Shown in pieces: positions 32,521 to 52,782 of a stretch of DNA of 64,000 nt. The DNA comes from Candidatus Roizmanbacteria bacterium. Lineage in GTDB: Bacteria; Patescibacteriota; Microgenomatia; UBA1406; GWC2-37-13. The notes under the pieces are model-generated. The model saw only the letters and a list, made by a program, of their open reading frames with translations. It was not told the origin of the DNA and did no database searches. The number at the start of each line of letters is the position of its first letter. The first letter of the stretch is position 1. Location: NCBI GenBank assembly GCA_016201695.1, contig JACQCK010000012.1:1-64000 (forward strand), given 5' to 3'. The position numbers were made by a program, and so were the translations under genes.

Positions 32521-33297
32521 ATGAAGGTTATTATCCTGTGCGGCGGTACCGGGACACGATTAAAAGAAGAAACAGAGTTTAAGCCGAAACCGATGGTGTT
32601 TGTTGGAACAAAACCAATAATTTGGCATATTATGAAAATATACTCTTACTATGGGTATAACGATTTTATTCTGGCGCTGGGATATAAGGCAAACTACATT
32701 AAGGAATATTTTTTGAATCAGAAGGCATTCGGTTCTGACTTTACACTCGATACCGCTGATCATAAAACCCGATATTATCTTCGCAGTCGTGGGGAGGTGG
32801 ATAATTTTCGAATAACATTTGTCGATACCGGTCTGGATACGATGCCGGGTGAGCGGATTCTTCGTTGTCAAAAATATATTCCCAAAGAAGACCAGTTTTT
32901 TTTGGTAACTTATGGTGATGGAGTAACCGATCTCAACATTGCAAAGGTAGTTACATTTCATAAAAAACAAAAAACTATCGGCACGATAACAGGAGTCCAT
33001 CCACGTTCCAAGTACGGACTCGTTAAAGTAAATAAAAAAAACATGGTTCTTCATTTTGAGGAGAAGCCGGTACTTTCAGATTTGGTAAACGGAGGATATA
33101 TGGTTTTTGATCGGCGAATTTTTAAATACTTAAAACCTGGCGAAACAGAACATCCAGCGCTTGTCCGTTTATCTAAGTTAGGTCAACTGTCACTTTTTAA
33201 ACATGACGGCTTTTGGTATGCAGTAGACACCTATAAAGAACTCGAGGACCTTATTAAGTTATGGAAAACTGATCCTCCCTGGAAAGTATGGGACTAA
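32521..33297 (+). CDS. rfbF: Glucose-1-phosphate cytidylyltransferase
   Basis: The 258-residue protein has the signature GGTGTRL (8-14), KPKPM (21-25) and PIIWHIMKIYS, the last being specific for RfbF/DdhA rather than RmlA or GalU. YGDGVTD (131-137) holds the metal aspartate D133, and DGFWYAVDT the second acidic site. It makes CDP-glucose from CTP and glucose-1-phosphate, the first step to 3,6-dideoxyhexoses. It heads a ten-gene plus-strand operon; the CDP-glucose dehydratase follows four bases later. Confidence 0.92.
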   Translation: MKVIILCGGTGTRLKEETEFKPKPMVFVGTKPIIWHIMKIYSYYGYNDFILALGYKANYIKEYFLNQKAFGSDFTLDTADHKTRYYLRSRGEVDNFRITFVDTGLDTMPGERILRCQKYIPKEDQFFLVTYGDGVTDLNIAKVVTFHKKQKTIGTITGVHPRSKYGLVKVNKKNMVLHFEEKPVLSDLVNGGYMVFDRRIFKYLKPGETEHPALVRLSKLGQLSLFKHDGFWYAVDTYKELEDLIKLWKTDPPWKVWD

Positions 33298-33301
33298 AAA
33301 T

Positions 33302-34258
33302 ATGAAAATATTCAAAGATAAAAACATTTTGGTAACAGGAGGTACGGGATTTGTGGGATCACATATAGTTGAGGAATTAGTAAGGGTGGAAGCAAACGTA
33401 ACAACAACATTCCTTACTGCAAATCCGCGATCTTATTTTTTTACTAAAAAACTCGACAAAAAAGTCAACATGGCGCATGTTGATGTTGGCGACTATGAAT
33501 CAGTCCTTGATTTAGTAACAAAATTTAGTATCGATTACATCTTTCATCTGGCAGCTCAACCTCTTGTTGAAGTTGCTTATTATAATCCAAGAAGAACTTT
33601 GTATAGCAATATTTTGGGGACAGTTAACATACTCGAAAGTACTAGGCTATATCCTAAAATAAAGAGCGTTATCATAGCTTCTTCCGATAAAGCTTACGGT
33701 AAGCTAAAAAAGAATAAGTATGAAGAAGGCGATCCGCTTCTCGGAGACCATCCGTATGAGGCGTCAAAATCTTCGGCTGATTTGATCGCCCAATCTTACT
33801 TTAAGACATACGGGCTTCCTGTTATTATCACACGTTTTGGCAATATTTATGGGGAGGGCGATCTGAATTTTTCTCGAATTATCCCGGCGATTATGAAAGC
33901 AATTGTGAGAGGCACGACTCTTGATATAAGAAGCGATGGAAAATACGTGCGGGATTATTTATATGTGAAAGATGTTGTTACCGGTTATCTTTTGCTAGCC
34001 AAAAATATAGATGACGTTCGGGGTGAAGTATTTAATTTCGGTTCAAGGGAAACGCTTTCTGTACTAGAAATAGTAAATTTAATTTCTAAATATTTGAAAA
34101 AGAAAATAAATTATAAGATTTTAAATTGCGCCAAAAACGAAATTTCCTACCAGTCTATTGATTATTCAAAAATCCAAAAACGGTTACATTGGAATCCAAG
34201 GTTTAATTTGATAAAATCAATTATTGGAGTTTTTAATTGGTATAAGAAAATATTATGA
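33302..34258 (+). CDS. rfbG: CDP-glucose 4,6-dehydratase-like SDR
   Basis: The 318-residue SDR has TGGTGFVGS (12-20), FHLAAQPLVEVAY, S-S-D-K-A-Y at 127-132 and Y152/K156. The HLAAQPLV and SSDKAYG blocks with a following D-P-L-L-G-D segment are characteristic of RfbG/DdhB. It would form CDP-4-keto-6-deoxyglucose. It is somewhat short for RfbG (about 355), so another CDP-sugar dehydratase specificity is possible. It is coupled by an ATGA overlap to the second cytidylyltransferase-like gene. Confidence 0.85.
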   Translation: MKIFKDKNILVTGGTGFVGSHIVEELVRVEANVTTTFLTANPRSYFFTKKLDKKVNMAHVDVGDYESVLDLVTKFSIDYIFHLAAQPLVEVAYYNPRRTLYSNILGTVNILESTRLYPKIKSVIIASSDKAYGKLKKNKYEEGDPLLGDHPYEASKSSADLIAQSYFKTYGLPVIITRFGNIYGEGDLNFSRIIPAIMKAIVRGTTLDIRSDGKYVRDYLYVKDVVTGYLLLAKNIDDVRGEVFNFGSRETLSVLEIVNLISKYLKKKINYKILNCAKNEISYQSIDYSKIQKRLHWNPRFNLIKSIIGVFNWYKKIL

Positions 34259-35043
34259 AAGTTGTAATTCTCTGCGGTGGCGAGGGTATCCGTTTAAAAC
34301 ACGAAATTAATTTCATCCCAAAAGGTCTGGTATATATAGACGAAAAGCCAATAATATGGCATATAATGAAAAGGTACTCACAATTTGGATTTAAGGAGTT
34401 TGTTCTAGCGTTAGGAAAGAACGGAGATATGATAAGGGATTATTTTCTCAACTACGATCGTTACACTAATAATATAGGCTTTACCATAAGAGCACCGCAG
34501 CATATAACTCACTATGATCAGAGTCAAGAAGAAGATTGGAATGTTACCCTGGTGAACACCGGCGAATTCGGAAACACTGGTGTGAGACTCCAACGCTGTC
34601 AAAAATATATTGACGGAAGCGATTTTATGCTGACTTACTCTGATTGTCTATGCAGTGTTAACCTCCATAGCCTGTTAAAACATCATGAAAAAAGGAAGAA
34701 AACGGTTACAGTAACCGGTATTATGCCGCCTTTTCGCTACGGAGAATTTGTATTAAAAAATAATAGAGTGACTCAGTACAATGAAACTTCCACGCTGTCT
34801 GCCAAACAAGGTTTAGTCAATGGAGGGTACATGGTACTAAACAAAAACATTTTTGAATTTCTTACACCCTATAACGAATGTACTTTAGAAAATGAAGTCT
34901 TTAAGAAGTTGATTGTTGAAAAAGACCTCAACGTTTATAGACACGATGGATTTTGGCAGTGTTTAGATAACGATCGAGAATTTACTTATTTAAAAAAACT
35001 CTGTGAAAGTAACAAACGTTATTGGTTATCTAAAAATATTTAA
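34255..35043 (+). CDS. Divergent RfbF-paralogue nucleotidyltransferase
   Basis: This 262-residue protein is clearly paralogous to the rfbF product one gene upstream (shared PIIWHIMK, RCQKYI, LVNGGYMV and DGFW blocks). The signature is changed: GGEGIR replaces GGTGTR, IPKGL replaces KPKPM, and YSDC (128-131) replaces YGDG, though the metal aspartate D130 and lysine K23 stay. It should still bind NTP and a sugar-1-phosphate, but probably a different sugar, perhaps the modified product of this operon. Loss of activity is less likely given the intact frame and translational coupling. Confidence 0.8.
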   Translation: MKVVILCGGEGIRLKHEINFIPKGLVYIDEKPIIWHIMKRYSQFGFKEFVLALGKNGDMIRDYFLNYDRYTNNIGFTIRAPQHITHYDQSQEEDWNVTLVNTGEFGNTGVRLQRCQKYIDGSDFMLTYSDCLCSVNLHSLLKHHEKRKKTVTVTGIMPPFRYGEFVLKNNRVTQYNETSTLSAKQGLVNGGYMVLNKNIFEFLTPYNECTLENEVFKKLIVEKDLNVYRHDGFWQCLDNDREFTYLKKLCESNKRYWLSKNI

Positions 35044-35561
35044 TGAAAAAAGCGGTAATCATAACTGGACCTGGTTTTGAAGAGGCAGAGGTGATCTATC
35101 CTTTTTACAGGTTGATCGAAGCGGGTTTTTCCGTAGAAATAGCAACCAAAAATAAATCCGAAGTTAAGGGCAAACATGGACTACCCTTGACAGCTACAGT
35201 GGATGCGTTAAGTCTTGTGGAATCGGACTACCATTTAGTAGTTATACCAGGCGGATATGAGGCTCCAGACAGGGTTAGACAGATAAAGGCAGTGTTGGTT
35301 TTTATTAGAGAGATGAATAAAAAAAATAAAATAATTGCCGCGGTGTGTCACGGTCCGTGGGTTTTAATTTCGGCCGGCATAATGAAGGGCAGAAAGGCAA
35401 CTTGTTACAAAGGTTGTAAAGACGACCTTATTAATGCAGGAGCCGTTTACTTAGAGATAGATGTCGTAGTTGATGGAAATATAATCACCTCGCCTCATTT
35501 TAAGACGATGGCTCCCTGGATGAAAGCAATTATCCTTAAATTTGATCACAGTACCTCTTAA
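35043..35561 (+). CDS. DJ-1/PfpI-family protein
   Basis: The 172-residue protein has the complete PfpI nucleophile elbow A-V-C102-H103-G-P and an early glutamate pair FEEAE (12-16) that activates the cysteine. Relatives include YhbO/PfpI, reported as deglycases or glyoxalase-like enzymes acting on reactive carbonyls. In this operon it could protect against dicarbonyls or take part in keto-sugar chemistry; both are inference. The start overlaps the preceding stop in TAATG. Such a gene is unusual inside a sugar-nucleotide operon. Confidence 0.85.
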   Translation: MKKAVIITGPGFEEAEVIYPFYRLIEAGFSVEIATKNKSEVKGKHGLPLTATVDALSLVESDYHLVVIPGGYEAPDRVRQIKAVLVFIREMNKKNKIIAAVCHGPWVLISAGIMKGRKATCYKGCKDDLINAGAVYLEIDVVVDGNIITSPHFKTMAPWMKAIILKFDHSTS

Positions 35562-35580
35562 TAACCTTAAATGCGAAAAG

Positions 35581-36366
35581 ATGATAAAAAGGATTTTTGT
35601 TTCAGAAACAGACAGAAATAATCTATCGAAATTCAAAACAGTCGAGTTGCCTAAAGTCGATAAATCTAGTTATCGGGATATAGTGGTGTGTAAACCCTGG
35701 GGTTATGAGTATCTCATGTTTGAAAATGATTACGTTGCGATCTGGATTCTTCACCTCAAGAAAGGTCATGAAACATCAATGCACTGTCATCCGCGGAAAA
35801 AAAGCTCTCTTGTTGTTATTTCCGGAAAAGTGTTAACTTCGACTCTCACGGAATGGTTTGAATTTGGCCATTTACAAGGAATAATCTATGATGCAGGTGT
35901 TTTTCATTCAACCAAAGCCCTATCAGAAGAGACTTTTGTTATGGAGATAGAGACGCCCCCAATGAAGAAAGACCTGGTGCGCCTTAAAGATTCATATGGT
36001 CGCGAAACCCAAGGTTACGAAGGAAGGGACAAGCATTCGAGAGATGTTCATAAATTTAATTATATTTTTTTCGATAAAAAGGATGTAAAAAGTCAGACCG
36101 ACAAAAAAATCAATAACACAGTTGTTTCCATTAACAAATGTAGGACAAACTTTTTGGACCACGAATTTTCCCAACGAGCGAAGTTGAAGGAAAAAAGCAT
36201 TTATTGTATTATTGAGGAGAAAGTCATCGATCTTGAGCATCGTTCTTATTTTTGGGCAGGAGCGATATTTGATGCCGACGGTATGAAGAATAGGAAGAAT
36301 ATCAGACTTTTTAATAACTGTCTTTTGTTATCAGTCAGATTGGCAAAAGATGAAAAAGCTAGTTAA
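35581..36366 (+). CDS. Cupin protein (mannose-6-phosphate-isomerase-like)
   Basis: The 261-residue protein has a cupin barrel from about residue 35 to 140. CKPWGYE precedes it, as in ManC/Pmi-type cupins, and SMHCHPRK supplies the first metal histidines, with GVFHSTKAL the later one. A second, weaker barrel-like segment follows to the C-terminus. It may isomerise or epimerise a keto-sugar intermediate, or act on a phosphosugar. The ATG at 35581 is chosen over an upstream TTG that would overlap the PfpI gene. It overlaps the ThDP gene by 17 bp. Confidence 0.75.
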   Translation: MIKRIFVSETDRNNLSKFKTVELPKVDKSSYRDIVVCKPWGYEYLMFENDYVAIWILHLKKGHETSMHCHPRKKSSLVVISGKVLTSTLTEWFEFGHLQGIIYDAGVFHSTKALSEETFVMEIETPPMKKDLVRLKDSYGRETQGYEGRDKHSRDVHKFNYIFFDKKDVKSQTDKKINNTVVSINKCRTNFLDHEFSQRAKLKEKSIYCIIEEKVIDLEHRSYFWAGAIFDADGMKNRKNIRLFNNCLLLSVRLAKDEKAS

Positions 36367-38173
36367 ACTTTCAGACTACGTAGCCGAAACCCTCAAAAGT
36401 CACGGCGTAAAGTATATTTTCATGATTACCGGCGGAGGCGCTATGCACCTGAACGACTCATTTGGAAAAACCGAAGGATTGACTTACTTTTGTAATCACC
36501 ACGAACAAGCATCAGCAATTGCGGCAGAATGCTACGCGCGATTAACTAATAACATCGGAGTATGTAATGTGACGACAGGTCCCGGCGGGACAAACACTCT
36601 GACTGGAGTCATAGGCGCTTGGTTGGACTCTATTCCAATGCTGATTATCTCTGGCCAAGTAAAAAGAGAAGTCAGTATGTACTCATATCCCAATTTAAAG
36701 TTAAGGCAGCTGGGTATTCAAGAAATAGACACAATAAACCTAGTCAAAGCGGTAACAAAATATGCTAAGGCCGTTATGGATCCGCTGGAAATACGTTATG
36801 AGTTAGAAAAAGCTCTTTATATAGCTAAATCAGGGAGACCTGGCCCGGTTTGGCTTGATATTCCCCTTGACGTGCAGGCTGCCATGATCAATGTCAAGAA
36901 TCTTCGTCCATTTAATCAGAGAGAAGTCGAAAAAAAACCGAATCTTGAATACTTAAAAAAACAAGTTACAGAGGTACTTAATCTCATTAAAAAATCAAAA
37001 CGTCCGGTGATTGTAGGTGGCTTTGGACTGCGATTAGGAAATAGTGTCGAGCTTTTTTATAAGCTTATCAGAAAATTGAACATTCCCATAGTAACGTCAC
37101 TTAGTGCACACGACCTCATGTGGGAAACTCATCCTTTATATGGCGGAAGATTTGGTTTATACGGCACTCGCGGTGGTAATTTTGCCGTCCAAAACTCTGA
37201 CCTTCTTTTAGTTTTGGGGTGCCGGTTGACGCTATGGGAAACAGGTTATGAATTTAAAACATTCGCTCGAGAAGCAACAAAAATTATGGTTGATATAGAT
37301 AAAGCTGAGCTCAATAAACCCACATTTAAACCTGATGTTCCGATAAATTTTGACGTTAAATTATTTATAAATGAGACGTTGAGACAAATTAATAATCATA
37401 CGATTCCCGATTTTTCTTGGTGGTTAACAAAAACCAAACATTGGCATAAAAAGTATCCAAATATTTTACCGGAATATAAAAATGAAAATAAATATGTCAA
37501 CTCCTATTATTTAATTGGAGAGCTGTCAGATCTGATGACGAAAGATGATGTTATCGTGACTGGAAATGGAACGGCTTTCACCTGTACCTGTCAGTCTATC
37601 AAACTCAAAAAAGGCCAAAGACTGTGCATTAATATTGGATGTGCAACAATGGGGTACGATCTACCGGCAGCCATAGGAGCGTATCTTGCAACCAATAAGA
37701 AAAGAGTTGTTTTAATTACCGGAGACGGGAGTGTTCAGATGAACCTTCAGGAGCTACAGACTATAGTACATCACAAGATGCCTATAAAGATTTTTATTTT
37801 GAATAACGATGGTTATTTGGCTATCAGAATTACCCAGTCAAATTATTTTAAGAGAGTTTTTGGTTCTGATAAAAGAACGGGAGTAAGTTTCCCCAATATG
37901 TTAAAAATTGCCAAGGCTTATGGAATTCCTTCTTTGAGGATCGACAATCAAACAAATCTTAAAGCGAAACTAAGAAAGGTTCTTAATTCAAAAGGTCCAA
38001 TTATTTGTGAGATTATGATGCCACCCAATCAGCCGCTTTTCCCTAAGCCACAAGCCATTGTCAAATCAGACGGAACTTTAATTTTAAAGCCCTTGGAAGA
38101 TATGTCACCACTTTTACCGCGAAAAGAGTTCTTGGCGAACATGTTTATAAAACCGGTTAACGCTGATATATGA
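36350..38173 (+). CDS. ThDP-dependent acetolactate-synthase-like enzyme (YerE-like candidate)
   Basis: The 607-residue protein has all three ThDP-enzyme domains: PYR (about 5-180) with activating glutamate E52 in HHEQAS, the central domain (about 200-345), and PP with G458-D-G and N485-N, the cofactor-binding motif. Acetolactate-synthase relatives decarboxylate pyruvate and transfer the two-carbon unit. YerE, of the same superfamily, adds it to C4 of CDP-4-keto-3,6-dideoxyglucose in yersiniose synthesis; the CDP-sugar genes beside this one make that the leading hypothesis. A plain 2-oxo-acid decarboxylase remains possible. Confidence 0.87.
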   Translation: MKKLVKLSDYVAETLKSHGVKYIFMITGGGAMHLNDSFGKTEGLTYFCNHHEQASAIAAECYARLTNNIGVCNVTTGPGGTNTLTGVIGAWLDSIPMLIISGQVKREVSMYSYPNLKLRQLGIQEIDTINLVKAVTKYAKAVMDPLEIRYELEKALYIAKSGRPGPVWLDIPLDVQAAMINVKNLRPFNQREVEKKPNLEYLKKQVTEVLNLIKKSKRPVIVGGFGLRLGNSVELFYKLIRKLNIPIVTSLSAHDLMWETHPLYGGRFGLYGTRGGNFAVQNSDLLLVLGCRLTLWETGYEFKTFAREATKIMVDIDKAELNKPTFKPDVPINFDVKLFINETLRQINNHTIPDFSWWLTKTKHWHKKYPNILPEYKNENKYVNSYYLIGELSDLMTKDDVIVTGNGTAFTCTCQSIKLKKGQRLCINIGCATMGYDLPAAIGAYLATNKKRVVLITGDGSVQMNLQELQTIVHHKMPIKIFILNNDGYLAIRITQSNYFKRVFGSDKRTGVSFPNMLKIAKAYGIPSLRIDNQTNLKAKLRKVLNSKGPIICEIMMPPNQPLFPKPQAIVKSDGTLILKPLEDMSPLLPRKEFLANMFIKPVNADI

Positions 38174-39210
38174 CAAAATCAATAAGAAAGGAAAAGATTA
38201 AAAAGTTGCTGGGAACATTATTCAAAAAAATCAAAGTACGAAAGGAAATTTATAGCCCTGTAATCGATGGTCTAATCGAAACTTCTCTTCGTGGCGTTGA
38301 TTCACATGGCATTAGACTAGCGCCACATTATCTTGAGGCAACGCTACTTGGAAGAATTAACCCCGATCCTCAATTTGAGTTTTCCCAAACGAGAGCTTCG
38401 ACTATGAAGATAGATGCGGATAATACATACGGCATAACTGTGAGTACAATCGGGATGAATAAAGCCGTCAAGATGGCAAGAAAAACAGGAGTTGGGGTAG
38501 TAAGCATTTATAATTCTTCCCATTTTGGAGCCGCTGGGATCTACGGTCAAATAGCAGCGGAAAATGACATGATCGGATTTTCAATGACACATGTTGAAGA
38601 TTTGGTTGCACCATATGGTGGTACAAAACCATTCTTCGGTACAAATGCATATTGTTTTACAGCGCCAATGGCAGATGAACGCCCCTTTATTTTGGATATG
38701 GCGACTTCGGCAATCAGTTTTAATATGCTTAGAATGCATCAAAGTAAAATTAAAGCGCTTAAATTAGGCTTAGCTATTGATAAACATGGTAAATTCACTA
38801 TAAATCCAAACGAGGCAGTTACTTTGACACCATTTGGAGGTTATAAAGGTTATGGAATTCAAGCGCAAGTCGAAATTTTGTGCAGCATGCTGACTGGGAT
38901 GCCTTTTGGACCATTTATCACGCATATGTTTCCTCTAACTATGGAAAAAAGACGCCTCGCTCATTTCTTGATGGCGATTGATATTGAAGCATTTATTGAT
39001 ATTAAAACTTTTAAAAAAAGAATGAAGGAGATGGCAGAAATAGTTAGAAAGATGACACCATCAGAAGGATTTTCAGAAGTAAGACTGGCTGGAGACCGAA
39101 GCAAACGTGAATATATAAAGAGACTAAAAGAGGGAATTCCTATAACTAAAGAGACCATCGATGACTTTCAAAGAGTTGCCCCGAAGATCGGATTAGAGAT
39201 TAATTTATGA
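38170..39210 (+). CDS. Ldh2/malate-lactate dehydrogenase-family oxidoreductase
   Basis: The 346-residue protein belongs to the Ldh_2 (YlbC/YiaK) family, with the hallmark L-R-G-V-D-S-H-G-I near residue 42 carrying the catalytic histidine, and a glycine-rich PFGGYKGYG block. Members reduce 2-oxo acids, diketogulonate or imines with NAD(P)H, using a fold distinct from other lactate dehydrogenases. Its ATGA overlap with the ThDP gene suggests it acts on that enzyme's product. I know no standard dideoxysugar pathway that uses this family, which makes it a notable part of the operon. Confidence 0.87.
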   Translation: MTKSIRKEKIKKLLGTLFKKIKVRKEIYSPVIDGLIETSLRGVDSHGIRLAPHYLEATLLGRINPDPQFEFSQTRASTMKIDADNTYGITVSTIGMNKAVKMARKTGVGVVSIYNSSHFGAAGIYGQIAAENDMIGFSMTHVEDLVAPYGGTKPFFGTNAYCFTAPMADERPFILDMATSAISFNMLRMHQSKIKALKLGLAIDKHGKFTINPNEAVTLTPFGGYKGYGIQAQVEILCSMLTGMPFGPFITHMFPLTMEKRRLAHFLMAIDIEAFIDIKTFKKRMKEMAEIVRKMTPSEGFSEVRLAGDRSKREYIKRLKEGIPITKETIDDFQRVAPKIGLEINL

Positions 39211-40103
39211 AAAAAATATTACTGACGGGCGCGAGTGGTTTTTTTGGACAAAACTTCCTCGAACAAAAAAATAAGAAATATATTATTGCCTCCCCTACTC
39301 ATCAGGAGCTTGATCTAGTAGACACAAAAGCAGTGGACGAGTATTTTAGAAAGCATGGCCCATTTGACGCAGTGGTTCACGCGGCAACGGTCGGTGGGAA
39401 GCGATACGAAAAAGGGATGAGTAATGTTGTTGAAACAAATCTACGTATTTTTTTTAATATCGAAAGAAATAAGAATCACTATAAAAAAATGATTCATTTC
39501 GGTACAGGGGCAGAATATGATAAATCACATGATATTAAAAAAATAAAAGAGACAGATTTCGGCCGACTGATACCGACTGATGGCTTTGGATTCTATAAAT
39601 ATATTTGCTCAAAATATATAGAGAGCATTAAAAATATATACCATTTAAGAGTATTCAGTTTATTTGGCCGATATGAAGATTATAAAGTCAGATTTATCTC
39701 TAACATAATTTGTAAATACCTACTGAAATTACCCCTAACAATAATGCGTAATAGTTATTATGACTTTCTTAATATTGATGACTTTATCAAGATTATTGAT
39801 TACTTTATCAACGAAAAGCCTAAATATAATTTCTATAACGTCGGTTCGGGACAAAAAATCACTTTATTATCAATTGCCAAAAAAATTAATTCTCTAGGCG
39901 ATTATTCTCTTCCGATTAGTATTCAAAAAAGTGGTCTAAATAACGAATATACTTGTGATAACAGTCGACTAATCAAAGAATTGAAAAACTTCAAATTTAG
40001 TCGTATTGACGATGCGATTAACGAGTTATACCATTGGTACAGAAAAAATTTTAAGCGCATTGATAAAAAGGCAATTATTGAAGATTCCTACAATAAGGCA
40101 TGA
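39207..40103 (+). CDS. WcaG-like SDR (NDP-sugar reductase candidate)
   Basis: The 298-residue protein starts with TGASGFFGQNF and has H-A-A-T-V-G-G, then FGTGAEYD and GFGFYKYICSK, a Y-x3-K pair in the position used by GDP-fucose synthase-like reductases. It lacks a full-length epimerase C-terminal domain but keeps YNVGSG. In yersiniose synthesis YerF reduces the branched ketone; this gene could play that part. It is joined by ATGA overlaps on both sides. Its codons are strongly AT-rich compared with the first 24 kb. Confidence 0.8.
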   Translation: MKKILLTGASGFFGQNFLEQKNKKYIIASPTHQELDLVDTKAVDEYFRKHGPFDAVVHAATVGGKRYEKGMSNVVETNLRIFFNIERNKNHYKKMIHFGTGAEYDKSHDIKKIKETDFGRLIPTDGFGFYKYICSKYIESIKNIYHLRVFSLFGRYEDYKVRFISNIICKYLLKLPLTIMRNSYYDFLNIDDFIKIIDYFINEKPKYNFYNVGSGQKITLLSIAKKINSLGDYSLPISIQKSGLNNEYTCDNSRLIKELKNFKFSRIDDAINELYHWYRKNFKRIDKKAIIEDSYNKA

Positions 40104-40777
40104 ACGTAATAAAGCCAAAAGGCATGTTGTTCGATATGGATGGTGTAATTACTATCTTAACAAATAATATGCGTGCATGGCGCATAGCTTTTAGAGCAAA
40201 AGCAGGAATCGAAATGGCAGATGACGATTGGTATAGATTAGAGGGAATGTCACCGCAGGAGATATCTGAAAAGATCTTAATAAATAACAATCATGTAGTA
40301 ACTCCTGAACTGGTTAAAGAAATTGCTGATTTAAAACAACTGATTTTTAATAACATTTCTGCTAAGAAAAAGGTTGAGTTATACCCTTTTGTTCAAGAAA
40401 TGCTTACTTTTCTTAAGCGCCATAATGTTAAGGTTGGATTAGTTACGGGATCGGTACTTGAACGGGTTAAAGGTAGCTTATCTAAAGAAGTTTTAGAGAT
40501 GTTTGACGCTATTGTGACCGCAGATGAGGTGAGGCAGAGGAAGCCTTCACCGGATCCATTTTTAAGAGGTGCCTCTTTATTGGGGCTTACTACAGGCGAA
40601 TGTTGGGCAGTCGAAAATGCCCCTTTAGGGGTGATTTCTGCAAGAAAAGCTGGGTGCTTCTGCGTTGCTTTAATGACGACATTAAGAGATAAAAGTAAAT
40701 TATCAAATGTCGGTGCGAACGTAATTTTTGATTCGCACAAAGACTTACTGGATCATTTCCGGCAAACATTCAAATGA
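40100..40777 (+). CDS. HAD-superfamily hydrolase (beta-phosphoglucomutase-like)
   Basis: The 225-residue protein has motif I D12-M-D14-G, motif II in VGLVTGS, and a late VENAPLGVISARKAG block typical of beta-phosphoglucomutase and phosphatase-type HAD subfamily I enzymes. A cap domain inserts at about 20-85. It would dephosphorylate or isomerise a sugar phosphate. With a second nucleotidyltransferase in the same operon, processing of a sugar phosphate before activation is a reasonable guess. Confidence 0.85.
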   Translation: MNVIKPKGMLFDMDGVITILTNNMRAWRIAFRAKAGIEMADDDWYRLEGMSPQEISEKILINNNHVVTPELVKEIADLKQLIFNNISAKKKVELYPFVQEMLTFLKRHNVKVGLVTGSVLERVKGSLSKEVLEMFDAIVTADEVRQRKPSPDPFLRGASLLGLTTGECWAVENAPLGVISARKAGCFCVALMTTLRDKSKLSNVGANVIFDSHKDLLDHFRQTFK

Positions 40778-45681: not shown

Positions 45682-46620
45682 ATGAATATTTTAGTAACCG
45701 GCGGTACCGGCTTCATCGGCAGTAATCTTTTGGATAAGCTTCTTAAAAAGAAGTATAACGTGGTTTTATTGAAGAGAAAGACCTCCAATACCTGGAGAAT
45801 AAGGCATATCACCAATAAAATACGGATGTATGATATTGATCTCTCAACCGACTATGACGCAATAATCAAAAAGGAAAAAACAAAAGTGATAATCCATCTT
45901 GCGGGTAAATATATAAAACAACATAAGAGCAGGGAAGAATTAAAAGAATTGATCGACTCAAATATAACTTTCCCCTCGCTTTTATTAGATAGTGCGGTAA
46001 GGAACGACGTTAAAATATTTGTCAATACCGGTACTTTTTTTGAGTATGAATTAAAAGGTAAAATAGACGAGAATTCACTTCGGAAACCATATGATTATTA
46101 CGCGGTTACTAAGATGGCCTTTGAGACTATCCTTAAATTCTATTCGGCTAATTCAAATATGAAAACGGCAACCTTGAAGCTTTTTTCCCCTTATGGTGAA
46201 AAGGACAATGAAAAGGTAATTCCGCTAATAATTAAGTGTTTTCTAAAACGTCAGCCCCTTTTTCTTACTAAAGGAAATCAAAAACTAAGTTTTACCTATG
46301 TTGATGATATAATCGTGGCTTATTTAAAAGCACTCGATTACCTTAATAATATCAAGGCTCCTTATTATGCGAACTTTAATATCGGGAGCAATAAAAGCGT
46401 TTCGATAAAAGAAATCGTTTCTCTGGTCCGACAGCTATGCAAACAAAACGACATGGTAAATTTCGGAGCGGTTAATAACCCGAAAGACGAGGGGTTGAAT
46501 ATAACCTGTGATAGTTCATTGGCACAGAGTCTCCTAAAATGGCGGGCGCAGTACTCTATAAAGAGCGGGCTTAAGAAGACGATTAAGTATTATAAAAACG
46601 AGCTTTTAAATAAAGCTTAA
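45682..46620 (+). CDS. CDP-dideoxyhexose reductase-like SDR (RfbJ/RfbS/AscF type)
   Basis: The 312-residue SDR has TGGTGFIGS, VNTGTFFEYE in the place of the usual S-S motif, and Y-Y-A-V-T-K as the catalytic Y-x3-K. NTGTFFEY and the LFSPYGEKD block resemble CDP-abequose and CDP-paratose synthases, which reduce CDP-4-keto-3,6-dideoxyglucose. Direct proximity to rfbH (18 bp) supports that role. Which C4 epimer is made cannot be told. About 230 bp upstream hold several AT-rich TATAAT-like strings but no gene. Confidence 0.8.
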   Translation: MNILVTGGTGFIGSNLLDKLLKKKYNVVLLKRKTSNTWRIRHITNKIRMYDIDLSTDYDAIIKKEKTKVIIHLAGKYIKQHKSREELKELIDSNITFPSLLLDSAVRNDVKIFVNTGTFFEYELKGKIDENSLRKPYDYYAVTKMAFETILKFYSANSNMKTATLKLFSPYGEKDNEKVIPLIIKCFLKRQPLFLTKGNQKLSFTYVDDIIVAYLKALDYLNNIKAPYYANFNIGSNKSVSIKEIVSLVRQLCKQNDMVNFGAVNNPKDEGLNITCDSSLAQSLLKWRAQYSIKSGLKKTIKYYKNELLNKA

Positions 46621-46626
46621 ATTCAA

Positions 46627-46632
46627 TATAAT
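46627..46632 (+). promoter_or_regulatory. TATAAT box close to the rfbH start
   Basis: TATAAT ends six bases before the ATG at 46639. It suggests a separate, leaderless rfbH transcript, although the upstream SDR is only 18 bp away. Confidence 0.4.
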
Positions 46633-46638
46633 ATCGCC

Positions 46639-48009
46639 ATGCCCTACCAAACCCGGTTTAATCCTCTTTCTCGACAGGAAACTAAAGAGCTTGTTAATTT
46701 AAGAGAACAAATAGGAGATAAGATAAAGAAATTTTACAACTTGAAGTTCAAAAAAGATATTATAATTCCGGGAGTTGATCTGCTTGAAACCGCCGGAAAG
46801 TACATCGGCGAAGAAGAATTAATAATGGGCACTAACGCGGTACTTGACGGATGGTGGACAGAAGGGAAGTACGCGGACGAGTTTGCGAGACAGTTGACCA
46901 AGTATTTAGGAGTACGATACTGTATTTTTGTCAACTCCGGCTCATCGGCCAACTTGATTGCATTTGCCTCACTCACTTCACACATTCTCGGAAAAAAGCG
47001 GATACACCCGGCCGATGAGGTTATTACCGTTGCCGCGGCCTTTCCAACTACCGTAAACCCAATTATTCAGTTGGGATGTACGCCGGTATTTGTTGATATT
47101 GATCGGAAAACATTAAATATCGATTGGTCAAAATTGGAAAAAGCCATCTCCGCTCGGACAAAAGCGATCATGATAGCGCACACGCAAGGCAATCCCTTTA
47201 ACCTGGAAAAAGTAGTCGAGTTTGCAAAAAAACACAAGTTATGGTTGGTTGAAGATTGTTGTGATGCTTTGGGAGCCGAATATAAAGGTCAGAAAGTCGG
47301 CACATTTGGAGACGTGGCGACATTGAGTTTCTATCCGGCTCATCAGATGACGACAGGAGAGGGCGGCGCGGTCCTGACTAACAACCCTTTTATTTATCGG
47401 ATAGCAAAATCTTTTCGTGATTGGGGACGTGATTGTTGGTGTGAGACGGGTGAGGACGATGCCTGTCGCCGGCGCTTCAACTGGAAATTTAAAAATCTGC
47501 CCGACGGATACGATCACAAATTTGTCTATTCCCACCTGGGATATAATCTGAAGTTTACCGATATCCAGGCGGCAATCGGACTGGCACAATTAAAGCGTAT
47601 TCCGCAGTTAATTGAAGCAAGAAGACGCAACTACTTGCTGCTTAGAAATAAGCTGGTAAAATTTAATAAGTATTTTACTTTTCAAGAGGCGGAAAAAAAC
47701 TCTGTTCCTTCCTGGTTTGGATTTATGTTGACGCTAACGAAGGCGTGCGGCTTTAACGTAGCCGACATCGCCAGCTATTTGAATAAGAAAAAAATAGCGA
47801 CGCGGCCTCTCTACTGCGGGAACATCACACTCCATCCGTATTTTGATAACCTGATATGTCGAGTGATCGGCGAGTTAAAAAATACAAACTACGTAATGAA
47901 TCACACCTTTTGGATCGGTATCCATCCGAAACTGGCAACAAAACACATCGATTACATTACTAAATGTATAGAAGAATATCTTATGCCAAAAAGAGCACGA
48001 AAAAGTTAA
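46639..48009 (+). CDS. rfbH: CDP-4-keto-6-deoxyglucose 3-dehydrase (E1)
   Basis: The 456-residue protein has the DegT/DnrJ/EryC1 fold, but the PLP lysine is replaced by H235 in YPAHQMTTGEGG, so it binds PMP and dehydrates instead of transaminating. Cysteines C208, C266, C268 and C276 fit the C-X57-C-X1-C-X7-C [2Fe-2S] motif reported for Yersinia E1. It removes the C3 hydroxyl of CDP-4-keto-6-deoxyglucose in the route to 3,6-dideoxyhexoses. The E3 reductase that supplies electrons is not in the window. It is placed between a reductase-like SDR and an RmlC-like cupin. Confidence 0.93.
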   Translation: MPYQTRFNPLSRQETKELVNLREQIGDKIKKFYNLKFKKDIIIPGVDLLETAGKYIGEEELIMGTNAVLDGWWTEGKYADEFARQLTKYLGVRYCIFVNSGSSANLIAFASLTSHILGKKRIHPADEVITVAAAFPTTVNPIIQLGCTPVFVDIDRKTLNIDWSKLEKAISARTKAIMIAHTQGNPFNLEKVVEFAKKHKLWLVEDCCDALGAEYKGQKVGTFGDVATLSFYPAHQMTTGEGGAVLTNNPFIYRIAKSFRDWGRDCWCETGEDDACRRRFNWKFKNLPDGYDHKFVYSHLGYNLKFTDIQAAIGLAQLKRIPQLIEARRRNYLLLRNKLVKFNKYFTFQEAEKNSVPSWFGFMLTLTKACGFNVADIASYLNKKKIATRPLYCGNITLHPYFDNLICRVIGELKNTNYVMNHTFWIGIHPKLATKHIDYITKCIEEYLMPKRARKS

Positions 48010-48088
48010 GAGATTGGGTGAAAGCTTAAAACTTTGGGCAAAAACTGTATTCAAAAACGCCCGATTATTACTCATTAAGGCGATTTAG

Positions 48089-48094
48089 TATAAT
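48089..48094 (+). promoter_or_regulatory. TATAAT box close to the cupin start
   Basis: TATAAT ends six bases before the ATG at 48101, within the 91-bp gap after rfbH. No good -35 was found. Confidence 0.45.
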
Positions 48095-48100
48095 TGCGTT

Positions 48101-48553
48101 ATGATACACGGAGTAAAAATTAAACCGCTTGGCAAAATAGCCGATGAGCGAGGAATGATTATGCACATGCTACGAAAAGACGATCCGGCCTTCAAGAAAT
48201 TTGGTGAAATATATTTCTCGATGGTATATCCGGGCGTAGTGAAGGGCTGGCACTATCATGAAAAAATGACGCTGAATTATGCAGTTATCCAAGGCATGAT
48301 TAAACTTGTAATGTACGATAATCGGTTAAATTCTCCAACGAAAGGTGAACTGATGGAAGTATATACCGGCGAAGCAAATTATGCCTTAATTACCATTCCG
48401 CCTAAAGTTTGGAACGGAGTAAAAGGGATAGGCTTAACACCGGCAATAATCGCCAACTGCAGCGATATTCCGCATGACCGGTCGGAAATAAAAAGAAAGG
48501 ATCCGTTAAAAAATGATCTAATTGATTATTCCTGGGACATTATTTTTCGGTAA
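48101..48553 (+). CDS. RmlC-like NDP-keto-sugar epimerase (AscE candidate)
   Basis: The 150-residue cupin follows the RmlC pattern: D-E-R-G near residue 12-15, GVVKGWHYH with the catalytic/substrate-contacting histidines, and a PPKVWNGVKG loop. RmlC makes C3/C5 inversions of dTDP-4-keto-6-deoxyglucose; AscE is a related 5-epimerase in CDP-ascarylose synthesis. Next to rfbH and a reductase, an AscE-like role would give the L-configured dideoxyhexose ascarylose. It is shorter than classic RmlC (about 180), so a 3,4-ketoisomerase is another option. Confidence 0.78.
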   Translation: MIHGVKIKPLGKIADERGMIMHMLRKDDPAFKKFGEIYFSMVYPGVVKGWHYHEKMTLNYAVIQGMIKLVMYDNRLNSPTKGELMEVYTGEANYALITIPPKVWNGVKGIGLTPAIIANCSDIPHDRSEIKRKDPLKNDLIDYSWDIIFR

Positions 48554-49493
48554 GAGCCGGATAGTTTTTAACTTCTAGTTTTTGCAGGATAGACTCAAAA
48601 TCCAGCGCCAGATAACGAAGATAATTATTAAGGACACTACTCCTGACTCTTATCCTTTTTCTGACTGCATAAGGACAGGTAATCAATCCAATCAGTATAC
48701 CCGTCAAACCATATAAAAGAGCCTTTAATGATCTTCTGGTTATAACACTATAGAAAAGATGCAGCAATAACCGTACCGCTAAAACCGGAAATAACTTATA
48801 AGGAAAGTATTTTAGGTAGAACCATAATGAGTTTCTCATGAAAAAAAAGTATGAGTTATACACAACGGTATGTTTGTTGAGGTGAAGGTGCTGAACTATA
48901 ATGTTACTTTCGAGATGAATAAAATAACCGGCATTCGCAATACGCATTCCCAGATCGTCTTCAGTATGATACATAAAAAAATCAGCGTCGTAATAACCGG
49001 ATTTCGAAAAAATCGACTTTCTAAAAGCACAGCCGTTGCCGGAAAAAGTAGGAAAATTGTGTCGGTCTAAAAGATTATGTTTGTTAGGAGAGCGATATAA
49101 GTATGTTTTAGTTTGAGTATCAAAAATTTCGAAAGTCAGAATGCCGACTGATTTCGGCTTCTTTCTAAAAGTCTCATAAACTTTTGTCAATGTATCAGGA
49201 TAGACCAAAGAATCATCATCCAGTTGGACGACAAATTGACCATTGGCATTCGCCAACCCGAAGGAAAGAGCGTAGATTCCGGTTCCATTTGACATGCTGA
49301 AGTAACGGACGCTTGGAAATTTAAAAATGATTGTTTCCTTAAGATAGGCGCTGTCACTATTGTCCATAACGAGTACTTCGTATCCGCTGAAATCCGATCT
49401 AAAAATAGATCGCAAACAACTAAGCAATTCTTTCTTTCTGCTGTCGCGAGTGGCAATAACCATGCTTATGTGAACAATTGAGGACGGTTTCAT
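48540..49493 (-). CDS. GT2 glycosyltransferase, rhamnosyl/galactofuranosyl-like
   Basis: The 317-residue GT-A enzyme opens ISMVIATRDSRKKEL and has LVMDNSDS, QLDDDSLVY (D-D-D metal site) and YHTEDDLGMRI. Two hydrophobic segments near 225-270 suggest membrane attachment. It shows the F-S-G-N-G-C-A-F-R-K block of the rhamnosyltransferase group. The 3' ends of this gene and the RmlC-like gene overlap by 14 bp. Confidence 0.86.
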   Translation of the reverse strand: MKPSSIVHISMVIATRDSRKKELLSCLRSIFRSDFSGYEVLVMDNSDSAYLKETIIFKFPSVRYFSMSNGTGIYALSFGLANANGQFVVQLDDDSLVYPDTLTKVYETFRKKPKSVGILTFEIFDTQTKTYLYRSPNKHNLLDRHNFPTFSGNGCAFRKSIFSKSGYYDADFFMYHTEDDLGMRIANAGYFIHLESNIIVQHLHLNKHTVVYNSYFFFMRNSLWFYLKYFPYKLFPVLAVRLLLHLFYSVITRRSLKALLYGLTGILIGLITCPYAVRKRIRVRSSVLNNYLRYLALDFESILQKLEVKNYPALTEK

Positions 49494-50248
49494 TATGTTT
49501 TGGAAAAAAGATAATTTGAAAGGTTTTTTTCAAAATTGTTTGCCTCATCTGGAGTGCCAATCGTAGTCCAGATTTTTGTTTTTACTGTTCGAATGATACT
49601 ACCGTTCTGTATCAGGTAGTTGTACAGAGGACACATATAAAACTCGTTATTGTAGCGTAGATTTCGTCTGATCATATCCTTGGCCGCAGAAACAAAATGA
49701 CTGCCTTTGGTAAAGTAATATAAGCCGATCGCCGCGTGAGAAGAAATTACCTGCTTTTCCGCCGTTTGTAGAGCGTTTCCTTGCGTATCAAGTTTTACAT
49801 AGGAATAAGCGGGGTTGGCGCTTTCGTAAATTGGTATCAGTCCTCCCCAGTCGCTTTTGATCGCTTTGTTTCTTTGATCGAAAAATTCAGGACAGATAAA
49901 ATACTGATCGCAGTCGCAAGTGAGCATGTCCTCGTCGGTATTGATAAGATCGGCGGCAGTTAAGACGGTACATACAGGCCCTTCTGTTACCTTCTTAATT
50001 AGCTTGACCGTACACTCGTTGCCCGCGATTGTTTTAAGAAAAGCGCTGATCTTATGAGACTGTTCATATTGCGCAAGCGTAATAAAAATAAAATCTTGCG
50101 ACTTTATTTTCGGAAACATTCTTTTTATACTCAAAATCGGCCATTCGATCATTGGCCTTCCGGCGACAGAAATAAGAGGCTTGGGGAGGGTAAATCCTTT
50201 CTTTCGAAAACGTAGGCCGCGGCCGGCAAGTGGAATTATAATTTTCAT
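49493..50248 (-). CDS. Sugar/polyol-phosphate nucleotidyltransferase-like protein
   Basis: The 251-residue protein starts MKIIIPLAGRGLRFRKKG with LPKPLISVAGRPMIEW, the NTP_transferase signature in a variant common in capsule clusters. TCDCDQYF holds the likely metal aspartate. It lacks the C-terminal beta-helix. It shares a base with the next gene (stop/start) and directly abuts the GDPD gene upstream (TAAATG). Context suggests it activates a non-standard phosphorylated unit, unproven. Confidence 0.8.
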   Translation of the reverse strand: MKIIIPLAGRGLRFRKKGFTLPKPLISVAGRPMIEWPILSIKRMFPKIKSQDFIFITLAQYEQSHKISAFLKTIAGNECTVKLIKKVTEGPVCTVLTAADLINTDEDMLTCDCDQYFICPEFFDQRNKAIKSDWGGLIPIYESANPAYSYVKLDTQGNALQTAEKQVISSHAAIGLYYFTKGSHFVSAAKDMIRRNLRYNNEFYMCPLYNYLIQNGSIIRTVKTKIWTTIGTPDEANNFEKNLSNYLFSKT

Positions 50249-51001
50249 TTAGAGATATGACTGTAATTTTATAGGTTCGTCGGTGCAGATGCCATCGATC
50301 CCCCAGTCGATTAAATGTTTCCACGTACTTTCAAAACCTGAACGCGCGAGCGGATGGTCAAGAGTTCGATGAACGTCCGGCGACACGGCAAACACCTTTT
50401 CCTTATGTTTTCGCACCTCGCGGATAAAAGAGCTACTATAAAGTTTCCTATATTCGGCCGCCCAGACAAAATCAAAATTTCTGTTGTGTTTCACTTCCGA
50501 CCATAAATAAACGGTTGGCGCGAATTTGTTCTCAGAGACAGTGCAGGCGATTTTGATCGATTTGTCTATCCGTTTAAGTTTGGCGGCCGCTTCTTGAGTC
50601 AAATCAAAAACAAAGGCATTGTGGTATAAATCGTATTCTTTCCAATACCGTGCCAGTATTTTGAGGCCATCATTTGTTTGGCTATCGGACTTTAAATGGA
50701 TCGCATGGAGCCTTTTTTTATATTTTTTTATTTCTTGTATAACTGTCAAAAAGGAAACGAATTTGGCTGCACTGTCCTTATAAGTTCGTGAGACGCACTC
50801 TTTTAGGGTTAGGGAACTGACCGGAGTTGAATCTTTGTTCAGCCTGGTGAAGGTTTCGTCATGCATGACAATAAAATCGCCGTTTCGAGTTAGGCGAAGA
50901 TCGGTTTCTAGGCAAAAACCAGTTTTAAGAGCAATGGAAAGAGCAGGAAGACTATTCTCCGGATACTTATGAAGCAGGCCGCGATGAGCAAAAATGAACA
51001 T
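50249..51001 (-). CDS. Glycerophosphodiester phosphodiesterase-family protein (GDPD)
   Basis: The 250-residue TIM-barrel protein has all GDPD motifs: H6-R-G, P-E-N-S at 14-17, E32-x-D34 for the metal, and H47-D48 in VMHDET. These enzymes hydrolyse glycerophosphodiesters to glycerol-3-phosphate and an alcohol. There is no signal peptide, so it should be cytoplasmic. Its position between two nucleotidyltransferase-like genes is unusual and points to a phosphodiester or polyol-phosphate intermediate in this module. A TATAAT box lies eight bases before its ATG. Confidence 0.87.
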   Translation of the reverse strand: MFIFAHRGLLHKYPENSLPALSIALKTGFCLETDLRLTRNGDFIVMHDETFTRLNKDSTPVSSLTLKECVSRTYKDSAAKFVSFLTVIQEIKKYKKRLHAIHLKSDSQTNDGLKILARYWKEYDLYHNAFVFDLTQEAAAKLKRIDKSIKIACTVSENKFAPTVYLWSEVKHNRNFDFVWAAEYRKLYSSSFIREVRKHKEKVFAVSPDVHRTLDHPLARSGFESTWKHLIDWGIDGICTDEPIKLQSYL

Positions 51002-51009
51002 ACGATATA

Positions 51010-51015
51010 ATTATA
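51010..51015 (-). promoter_or_regulatory. TATAAT box close to the GDPD start
   Basis: The minus strand reads TATAAT, eight bases, then the ATG at 51001; it overlaps the end of the upstream nucleotidyltransferase-like gene. Confidence 0.35.
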
Positions 51016-51742
51016 AGGCGTGAGTGTTATTTTTATAGCCGGTGATGTCAGAAGGGGTTCCCCATATATATTTAATGATATTGTGTGAACAAATGACTTT
51101 TTGGTGAGTTTTTATCAGTTCGTTAAAAACCGGTCCGACATAAAACGTTTTTTCAAACAAATATCGTTTATTCTTTATCATTTTCTTGGCGTATCTTACA
51201 AAAAGAGAGCCTTTAGAAAAATAATAAAGCCCCATCGTGGCGAGTTGTGGTTTATCAACGTAAATTTTCTCCTTAAGTTCACTAAAATTGCCACGCGGAT
51301 CCGTATAGGCATATCCCCAGGGGCGGTCTGATATATTGCCGTAAGCGACGGGGAGGATGGCGGCTGCTTTTTGTTTGACAGTTTTAATATCCCGGTAAAG
51401 TTGATCAATATCACGAATCACGTCAGCGAGTTCAATCATCAGATCTCTATTTGAGTTGATTATCGACTCTAATGCTTTAAGTATCGAACACGGTGCGCCG
51501 GCGGTGGATTCCTCTAGTATTTTTGTAACGGCGTTTCTGCCGAAAAGCGTTTGTAATCGTTTTTGAACATTATGTTTTCTTTCGTCTTCTTTGAGAATTA
51601 CAAAAAAAATTCGGTCCATTGGTTTTAACTGATGCCGTTCAACGATATACTCGATAAGTAATTTTTTTCCGATCCGAACGAATGGTTTATACTGTTTCCG
51701 GAATTGAGGATTTTTGCCGGCCAGGGGAATGACAAGGTTCAT
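51011..51742 (-). CDS. Divergent nucleotidyltransferase-like protein
   Basis: The protein of 243 residues begins MNLVIPLAGKNPQFRKQYKPF, aligning with the nucleotidyltransferase two genes downstream, but the G-x-G-x-R loop is altered to K-N-P-Q-F-R and the region of the metal aspartate reads LADVIRD. GAPCSILKAL and PWGYAYTD are retained family blocks. It may have changed specificity or act as a partner subunit. The ATG at 51742 gives an ATGA overlap with the preceding dehydrogenase gene, better than an upstream start. Confidence 0.7.
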   Translation of the reverse strand: MNLVIPLAGKNPQFRKQYKPFVRIGKKLLIEYIVERHQLKPMDRIFFVILKEDERKHNVQKRLQTLFGRNAVTKILEESTAGAPCSILKALESIINSNRDLMIELADVIRDIDQLYRDIKTVKQKAAAILPVAYGNISDRPWGYAYTDPRGNFSELKEKIYVDKPQLATMGLYYFSKGSLFVRYAKKMIKNKRYLFEKTFYVGPVFNELIKTHQKVICSHNIIKYIWGTPSDITGYKNNTHAL

Positions 51743-52782
51743 ATAATTGTAGGCCACTCTAAAAGAATTCGGCCGTGAGATTTTTTAGAGTCGGCAAATT
51801 CAAATGCCTGGCGTAAGTCCTTGGTTGACGTTATTAGAAATTTTCCGGGATAAATAATATCATTCTTAATTATAGTGCTAATACTGTTAGTCTTGATAAA
51901 TTCTATGGCGCTAATATAATCTGCGTAAGTGGAACGAGTAAGGCCCTTGACTTCTATACGTTGATTCACGAGCTGGTTTGACGGCAGTGCCAGCGATAAA
52001 TGAGATATACCGAGGATACCTATCTTGCCCCCGGGACGGATAAGTTTAAAGGCAAGATTGAGAGTGGTATTGATATGTGTCCGGCCGACCGCTTCAAGCA
52101 CCGCCGTAAAATGCGATCTTAGCCCTAATAAGTCTGACTCCTCATAGTTTATGATTTGAGCAAAGTTCTGAAAATATTTCAGCTTATCGTTATTTATACC
52201 GAATATATAGAGGTTGGCTTTGGGAATATTGGCAAACTTGGCTAAAATAAGCATCATCAAGAAGGCCATTCCTCCGGTTCCGATAATAGCAACTTTGTCA
52301 TTGGCGTTAATGTTCATTTCCTTAAGTGACTTGATCGCAATCGAAGTCGGTTCAACCAAGCTGGCTGTCTCGTTTGGAATTTCATCAGGAACCGGAAGTA
52401 GTAATTCCTGCGAATAAATAAAAGACGTACGCGCCAGACCGGGCATACTTGCTCCCATGTAAGGAAGTTCCGGCCAGAGGTTTTCCTTACCGATGAAGTT
52501 GGAAGGAACATTTCTGAAATCACCGGCAACCGGAACGACTCTTTTACCGGTTATAAGATCTAAACATACACCTTCGTGCAGCAAAATTAATGGCAGGCGT
52601 AGTTTTAGTTTTTCGCTTGATTTTTCGCCGCGGTAATATTGAATATCCGAACCGCAGATCGCCGTGATTAGCGGTTTTAAAAGTGAATGATATGGCGGAA
52701 TGGAAAAGATTGATCTTTTTTTTTCACTGAATACGCCCGGTTTCACCAAATAATACTCCGTGGCATTAATGGGAAAGTTCAC
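51739..52782 (-). CDS. MDR-family dehydrogenase, TarJ-like
   Basis: The 347-residue medium-chain dehydrogenase has C43-G-S-D in the catalytic zinc position and H69-E70 in LLHEGV, plus an NAD-binding GTGGMAFL loop. It lacks the four-cysteine structural zinc lobe. The order CGSD-x-x-YYRG, KLRLPLILLHEG and later ELLLPVPDE resembles TarJ, the ribitol-5-phosphate dehydrogenase of teichoic-acid synthesis. With nucleotidyltransferases and a GDPD next to it, a CDP-polyol route is a hypothesis. A general sugar or polyol dehydrogenase is the safe call. Confidence 0.78.
   Translation of the reverse strand: MNFPINATEYYLVKPGVFSEKKRSIFSIPPYHSLLKPLITAICGSDIQYYRGEKSSEKLKLRLPLILLHEGVCLDLITGKRVVPVAGDFRNVPSNFIGKENLWPELPYMGASMPGLARTSFIYSQELLLPVPDEIPNETASLVEPTSIAIKSLKEMNINANDKVAIIGTGGMAFLMMLILAKFANIPKANLYIFGINNDKLKYFQNFAQIINYEESDLLGLRSHFTAVLEAVGRTHINTTLNLAFKLIRPGGKIGILGISHLSLALPSNQLVNQRIEVKGLTRSTYADYISAIEFIKTNSISTIIKNDIIYPGKFLITSTKDLRQAFEFADSKKSHGRILLEWPTII

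Follow-up and report, generated by a model that had tools for sequence, protein, structure and literature searches.

A dual downstream gene set and a missing classical reductase around an E1-type dehydrase (RfbH) in a CPR bacterium

In Yersinia and Salmonella, the CDP-ascarylose/abequose pathway comprises RfbF, RfbG, the dehydrase RfbH (E1), E3, and a reductase. The window, by which we mean the whole stretch of 64,000 nucleotides analyzed here, resembles this pathway in carrying an RfbH with the catalytic His and four cysteines at the E1 spacing, along with rfbF- and rfbG-like genes, but it differs in that its genome, which is that of a CPR cell, lacks E3 and plant-type ferredoxin, and in that its cupin appears to come from another RmlC-like subfamily. 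The window's SDR is of a kind whose homologues sit after RfbH in Pseudomonas clusters. For branched sugars, YerE and ErwE take the compound that RfbH makes, CDP-3,6-dideoxy-4-keto-glucose, and attach an activated aldehyde to it (PMC12247030). The window encodes a full-length homologue of YerE, ErwE, and JanthE, and, like yerE, genes for enzymes of its kind occur next to RfbH; it differs in that it has GDG in place of CDG, falls in a clade of its own rather than that of Yersinia YerE, and is accompanied by Ldh_2, DJ-1, and HAD genes. SpnQ of the spinosyn pathway, an E1-like dehydrase with a cluster, uses generic ferredoxin/flavodoxin reductases and has no dedicated E3 (PMC8987622). The window RfbH is likewise E1-like, with a cluster but without a dedicated E3, whereas the substrate of SpnQ is dTDP-linked and SpnQ has known generic ferredoxin/flavodoxin pairs, with none identified for the window. 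ColD, from the colitose pathway, is also a His-type DegT 3-dehydratase, but it has no cluster, while the window RfbH keeps all four cysteines. Altogether, the window presents a dual downstream gene set and a missing classical reductase around an E1-type dehydrase (Table 1).

Table 1. Genes of the two runs discussed in the text (positions within the window)
Feature	Position	Strand	Basis
rfbF-like glucose-1-phosphate cytidylyltransferase	32521..33297	+	TIGR02623 259 bits, cut-off 300; 1tzf
rfbG-like CDP-glucose 4,6-dehydratase	33302..34258	+	TIGR02622 203 bits, cut-off 278; 1rkx
Second rfbF-like nucleotidyltransferase	34255..35043	+	TIGR02623 242 bits, cut-off 300
DJ-1/PfpI-like protein, branched-sugar operon	35043..35561	+	PF01965 162 bits; conserved in L208
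Protein without Pfam or NCBIfam match, branched-sugar operon	35542..36366	+	57% in L208
YerE-like ThDP-dependent carboligase, E52, GDG 458-460, NN 485-486	36350..38173	+	8rph match
Ldh_2-family dehydrogenase, candidate 2-oxo acid donor supplier	38170..39210	+	PF02615 327 bits
SDR accompanying ThDP enzyme, candidate branch ketoreductase	39207..40103	+	neighborhood homologues
HAD-family phosphatase, branched-sugar operon	40100..40777	+	57% in L208
Extended SDR, YxxxK at Y140, candidate RfbJ/AscF-kind C4 ketoreductase	45682..46620	+	SDR family matches
RfbH, E1-type CDP-4-keto-6-deoxyglucose 3-dehydrase	46639..48009	+	NF011936, 3bcx, motif census
RmlC-superfamily cupin (3ejk-like), candidate 4-keto sugar epimerase/isomerase	48101..48553	+	PF00908 34 bits

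Our searches confirm that the E1-type RfbH is real and no chance match. This DegT-family protein scored 637.5 bits against the RfbH equivalog profile, where the cut-off is 423, and its top solved structures were those of Yersinia E1 (3bcx and 3bb8), matched over nearly the full length at an E of about 1e-144 (5e-145 for 3bcx), with ColD far behind at about 1e-51. Identity to the RfbH of Yersinia aleksiciae was 53%. An earlier note on this DNA had reported that a His replaces the PLP lysine and that the cysteines follow the pattern of Yersinia E1, and both readings held up on alignment: H235 occupies the PLP-lysine site and aligns with the E1 His at the PMP site, and the [2Fe-2S] cysteines C208, C266, C268, and C276 align with those of E1 at the same spacing, C-X57-C-X1-C-X7-C. 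A motif census of the genome_contigs set revealed that nearly all RfbH readable by the pattern keep this spacing, with about ten, mostly from Bacteroidota, unmatched by the pattern, and the C-x-C..C motif was present in 20/20 further RfbH from closer relatives of the window. The window RfbH is divergent, sharing mostly 48-51% identity with the RfbH of its family, which average 64% among themselves, and it deviates at 8 sites where at least 96% of 114 sequences agree; other RfbH show equal numbers of such departures. Judged by its residues and matches, it is a sound E1-type dehydrase with a predicted role in the C3 deoxygenation of CDP-4-keto-6-deoxyglucose. Two variants found elsewhere (L036:9319-10644 and L037:9270-10592) have C-X57-C-X1-C-X10-C, three residues longer than in E1.

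The RfbH gene lies between a reductase-like SDR gene and a cupin gene, all in the same direction, as originally described. We surveyed 20 loci around RfbH from the window's family and slightly wider relatives and found a five-gene unit, rfbF-rfbG-rfbH-SDR-cupin (module A), that three members of the window's family (L202, L209, and L213) carry in full, while a fourth (L198) has its last three genes. The window's SDR-RfbH-cupin trio consists of the same genes, in support of the proposal that the window holds a nearly full route to a CDP-3,6-dideoxyhexose. Within the family, the module A SDRs that adjoin RfbH are 37-51% identical to that of the window, and homologues of the cupin, which matched 3ejk at 129 bits, reach 63-71% in the relatives' module A, 64% in L134, and 54% in L076. 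The cupin had been called RmlC/AscE-like; it does belong to the RmlC superfamily and keeps the RmlC-type His, but most other RmlC signature positions are absent, and by sequence it does not appear to be a close relative of RmlC or AscE. Since the His is kept but not the other positions, ascarylose is not preferable over other 3,6-dideoxyhexoses such as abequose and paratose.

The rfbF and rfbG genes, placed 13 kb away by the earlier note, are real, but both miss their NCBIfam equivalog cut-offs. The rfbF-like protein has as its nearest solved structure the glucose-1-phosphate cytidylyltransferase 1tzf (202 bits; next best, 70), with homologues of 61-77% identity within the RfbH clusters of relatives. 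The rfbG-like protein is the genome's best match on TIGR02622, is nearest to the CDP-glucose 4,6-dehydratase 1rkx, and has the S-D-K triad and YxxxK (YEASK). RfbF and RfbG are most plausibly encoded by these two genes. The second rfbF-like gene has a 64% counterpart at the same operon position in L208.

A linear 3,6-dideoxyhexose, the product first proposed, is supported, but that proposal overlooked the YerE-like carboligase module between rfbF/G and RfbH, and a branched 3,6-dideoxy sugar is at least as likely a product as a linear one. The best solved structure for the carboligase was 8rph at 440 bits, followed by an acetolactate synthase at 277. The 8rph sequence has a CDG motif, which according to a review marks JanthE, a YerE-like enzyme of known structure (PMC12247030), and we infer that 8rph is JanthE. 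Compared with Yersinia YerE alone, the window enzyme scored 273 bits, no better than with AHAS. In a tree whose rows were picked from RfbH loci, and which by itself is no proof of a link to RfbH, it groups with six others (99% SH-aLRT) apart from E. coli IlvB, Gcl, and the Yersinia YerE group. We take it to be a YerE-like enzyme, predicted to transfer an acyl unit to a CDP-3,6-dideoxy-4-keto sugar. In an unbiased count over 379 CPR genomes, the carboligase occurs in 21 and RfbH in 16, with both in 8 compared to 0.9 expected (hypergeometric 2e-7, uncorrected for kinship); one of the RfbH genomes (G328) lacks the cluster cysteines, and without it the overlap is 7 compared to 0.8 expected (3e-6). 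In other organisms, 32/75 resolved loci have a carboligase no more than about 10 kb from RfbH, among them that of Yersinia, where the enzyme's gene lies 4 bp after RfbH.

The genes around the carboligase recur as well. Module B consists of rfbF, rfbG, rfbF2, DJ-1, a protein without a recognized family, the carboligase, an SDR, and HAD, and the window run from 32521 to 40777 matches it with an added Ldh_2 gene that scores below every NCBIfam cut-off. At L208, RfbH follows module B downstream at a distance of three genes, and the carboligase and SDR are 71% and 66% identical to those of the window; of the 20 relatives' loci, about eight others also have a carboligase gene close to RfbH. Homologues of the module B SDR adjoin both carboligase and RfbH in L025, L035, L081, L121, and family relatives. 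In the window, the modules do not form one run: both are on the + strand, separated by about 5 kb that includes - strand genes. Because modules A and B both recur around the RfbH of relatives, RfbH appears to serve two kinds of cluster, and the window, by gene content, holds both with one shared rfbF-rfbG pair. Related gene sets were seen elsewhere: L179 (4149-10580) has two YerE-like carboligases together with rfbF, rfbG, and an acetaldehyde dehydrogenase and a 4-hydroxy-2-oxovalerate aldolase above cut-off, the latter two of which could supply hydroxylated 2-oxo acid donors, the kind preferred by ErwE, and at L029 (7352-13263) RfbH adjoins a B12-type radical SAM-like protein, the carboligase-associated SDR, and a split transketolase, perhaps another branching route.

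Based on the co-occurrence of carboligase and RfbH, on module A, and on module B with RfbH downstream in L208, we propose, with a probability of roughly 0.68, that the genes of this region produce CDP-4-keto-3,6-dideoxyglucose, from which both a plain 3,6-dideoxyhexose and a branched sugar of the yersiniose/erwiniose type derive, with electrons supplied independently of E3. RfbF and RfbG would convert glucose-1-phosphate to CDP-4-keto-6-deoxyglucose, which would join the PMP of RfbH as a Schiff base; H235 would then abstract the C4' proton of PMP, the C3 hydroxyl would be expelled to give a glucoseen, and two single electrons passed through RfbH's own [2Fe-2S] cluster would yield the common intermediate. 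At one outlet, the SDR and cupin beside RfbH would reduce and epimerize this intermediate to a 3,6-dideoxyhexose. At the other, the YerE-like ThDP enzyme would place an activated aldehyde derived from a 2-oxo acid on C4, and the SDR encoded at 39207 would then reduce the branch. The window encodes many glycosyltransferases, and the product sugars would enter a surface glycan. Counting against this reading are the sub-cut-off rfbF and rfbG, carboligases that accompany rfbF/G in the absence of RfbH, the separate runs, the lack of a ferredoxin in our searches, FNR-type genes that are as common in CPR without RfbH as with it, and a cupin in which most RmlC signature positions are absent.

The earlier note had observed that E3 is missing from the locus, and a genome-wide check extends this observation. 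In a search limited to PF00111, PF00037, PF00175, and an E3 profile, we found no Fer2 domain (plant-type ferredoxin), no Fer4 domain, and no full-length or fused E3 in the window's own genome. Two stand-alone FNR-type flavoproteins are encoded away from the window, on contig 48 (8664-9362) and contig 40 (12593-13225); the contig 48 protein aligns with the FNR portion of the E3 model (positions 99-326, 101 bits) and also with the FNR halves of BenC/MmoC. Among other organisms, E3 lies within 10 kb of RfbH at 18/80 loci, 16 of them from Pseudomonadota, one from Kiritimatiellota, and one unassigned. We also searched whole genomes for a full-length E3, defined as an N-terminal Fer2 and an FNR in one frame, leaving out genomes with E3 already beside RfbH and about ten redundant genomes. 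Among the matches listed, full-length E3 was seen in many Pseudomonadota, in 0/24 RfbH genomes of other phyla, and in 0/15 CPR genomes; some Bacteroidota carry the Fer2 and FNR domains in reverse order. No E3 or FNR gene was recognized at the 20 relatives' RfbH loci. Since E3 adjoins RfbH almost exclusively in Pseudomonadota, its absence is general outside that phylum. Most RfbH genomes of other phyla lack it, many of them while retaining the cysteines, and SpnQ uses generic reductases; a missing E3 therefore does not refute RfbH function, contrary to what had been supposed.

If not from E3, electrons may come from one of the two stand-alone FNR flavoproteins, directly or via an unrecognized carrier. 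In two CPR genomes of one family (L027 and L030), RfbH is immediately followed by an FNR gene that has no Fer2 (the two FNR genes are 54% identical), so a ferredoxin-less FNR, that is, E3 minus its [2Fe-2S] domain, could be the direct donor. We put forward tentatively, and with some doubt, that CPR RfbH is reduced by such an FNR, or by another donor in FNR-less genomes, to feed branched 3,6-dideoxy surface sugars. Co-occurrence did not single out FNR as a specific partner of RfbH, as FNR-type genes were found in 11/16 CPR RfbH genomes compared to 255/379 CPR genomes in all, and five CPR RfbH genomes have no FNR. A Fer2 match in G039 was rejected as E3, as its sequence and neighbor suggest a succinate dehydrogenase/fumarate reductase iron-sulfur subunit.

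The host genome (985 kb, 57 contigs, 96% complete) belongs to Patescibacteriota by GTDB. Since G233, a genome of the same phylum, has a contig that matches a candidate division WWE3 record exactly across 6987 bases, the host phylum is CPR, as had been suspected. Of about 70 genomes sampled from the window's own family, 18 carry RfbH, compared to 16/379 in the phylum sample. RfbH is not mainly a gene of Gram-negative O-antigens, with members in Chloroflexota, in archaea, and in several families of CPR. The RfbH tree called for by the earlier note revealed that CPR RfbH fall into more than one group, with 7 changes counted along the tree, of which no fewer than 3 are forced. A quick tree placed the window RfbH outside the clade of its family members, but an AU test did not reject its placement within that clade (p 0.60), and the xenologous replacement suggested by the quick tree was dropped. 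Our literature search for RfbH in CPR found no report.

We considered whether RfbH might serve the linear route alone, with RfbH, SDR, and cupin producing a plain CDP-3,6-dideoxyhexose and the ThDP module making an unrelated sugar from CDP-4-keto-6-deoxyglucose. Module A is indeed a complete five-gene unit without a nearby carboligase in L202, L209, and L213, and in L179 and L182 the carboligase accompanies rfbF/G although RfbH is absent, so module B of the window may be independent of RfbH. However, module B in L208 has RfbH downstream, the carboligase adjoins RfbH at many loci, and the two co-occur across CPR genomes, leaving this separation of the modules improbable, though the strongest of the alternatives. 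It is less probable still that RfbH works without electrons in the manner of ColD, with the glucoseen hydrolyzed, PMP renewed by glutamate transamination, and the cluster a relic. The failure of our own-genome searches to find E3, Fer2, or Fer4 fits such chemistry, as do cluster-less His-type relatives that adjoin the carboligase in four CPR loci, but the four cysteines at E1 spacing and the C-x-C..C motif in all 20 closer-relative RfbH speak against it, and E1 showed no transferase chemistry under such conditions (PMC8987622). The divergence of RfbH and its conserved-position departures could also point to a nonfunctional remnant, either decaying or newly acquired; with open frames, intact active-site and cluster residues, a conserved module, equal departures in other RfbH, and an AU test that allows the family grouping, we consider this highly improbable. 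The cluster-less His-type DegT proteins beside the carboligase (L039:9360-10637, L177:12755-14002, L178:3429-4718, and L180:7818-9110), which are ColD-like, may themselves represent an alternative route around a missing E3.

Our findings suggest that CPR bacteria, despite minimal genomes, likely make 3,6-dideoxy sugars and probably carbon-branched ones too, using sugar deoxygenation and carbon branching like those that gut pathogens employ for surface sugars. Such sugars would mark the little-known CPR cell surface, and how electrons reach an E1-type dehydrase in cells without E3 or plant-type ferredoxin is a testable question. Elsewhere in the window, inspection by eye revealed two nucleotidyltransferase-like ORFs flanking a glycerophosphodiester phosphodiesterase-like ORF on the - strand (49493-53843), a set that adjoins two alcohol dehydrogenase-like ORFs, and 58256-59368 encodes an ordinary DegT aminotransferase whose PLP site holds Lys (SFYPTK), with an SDR next to it.
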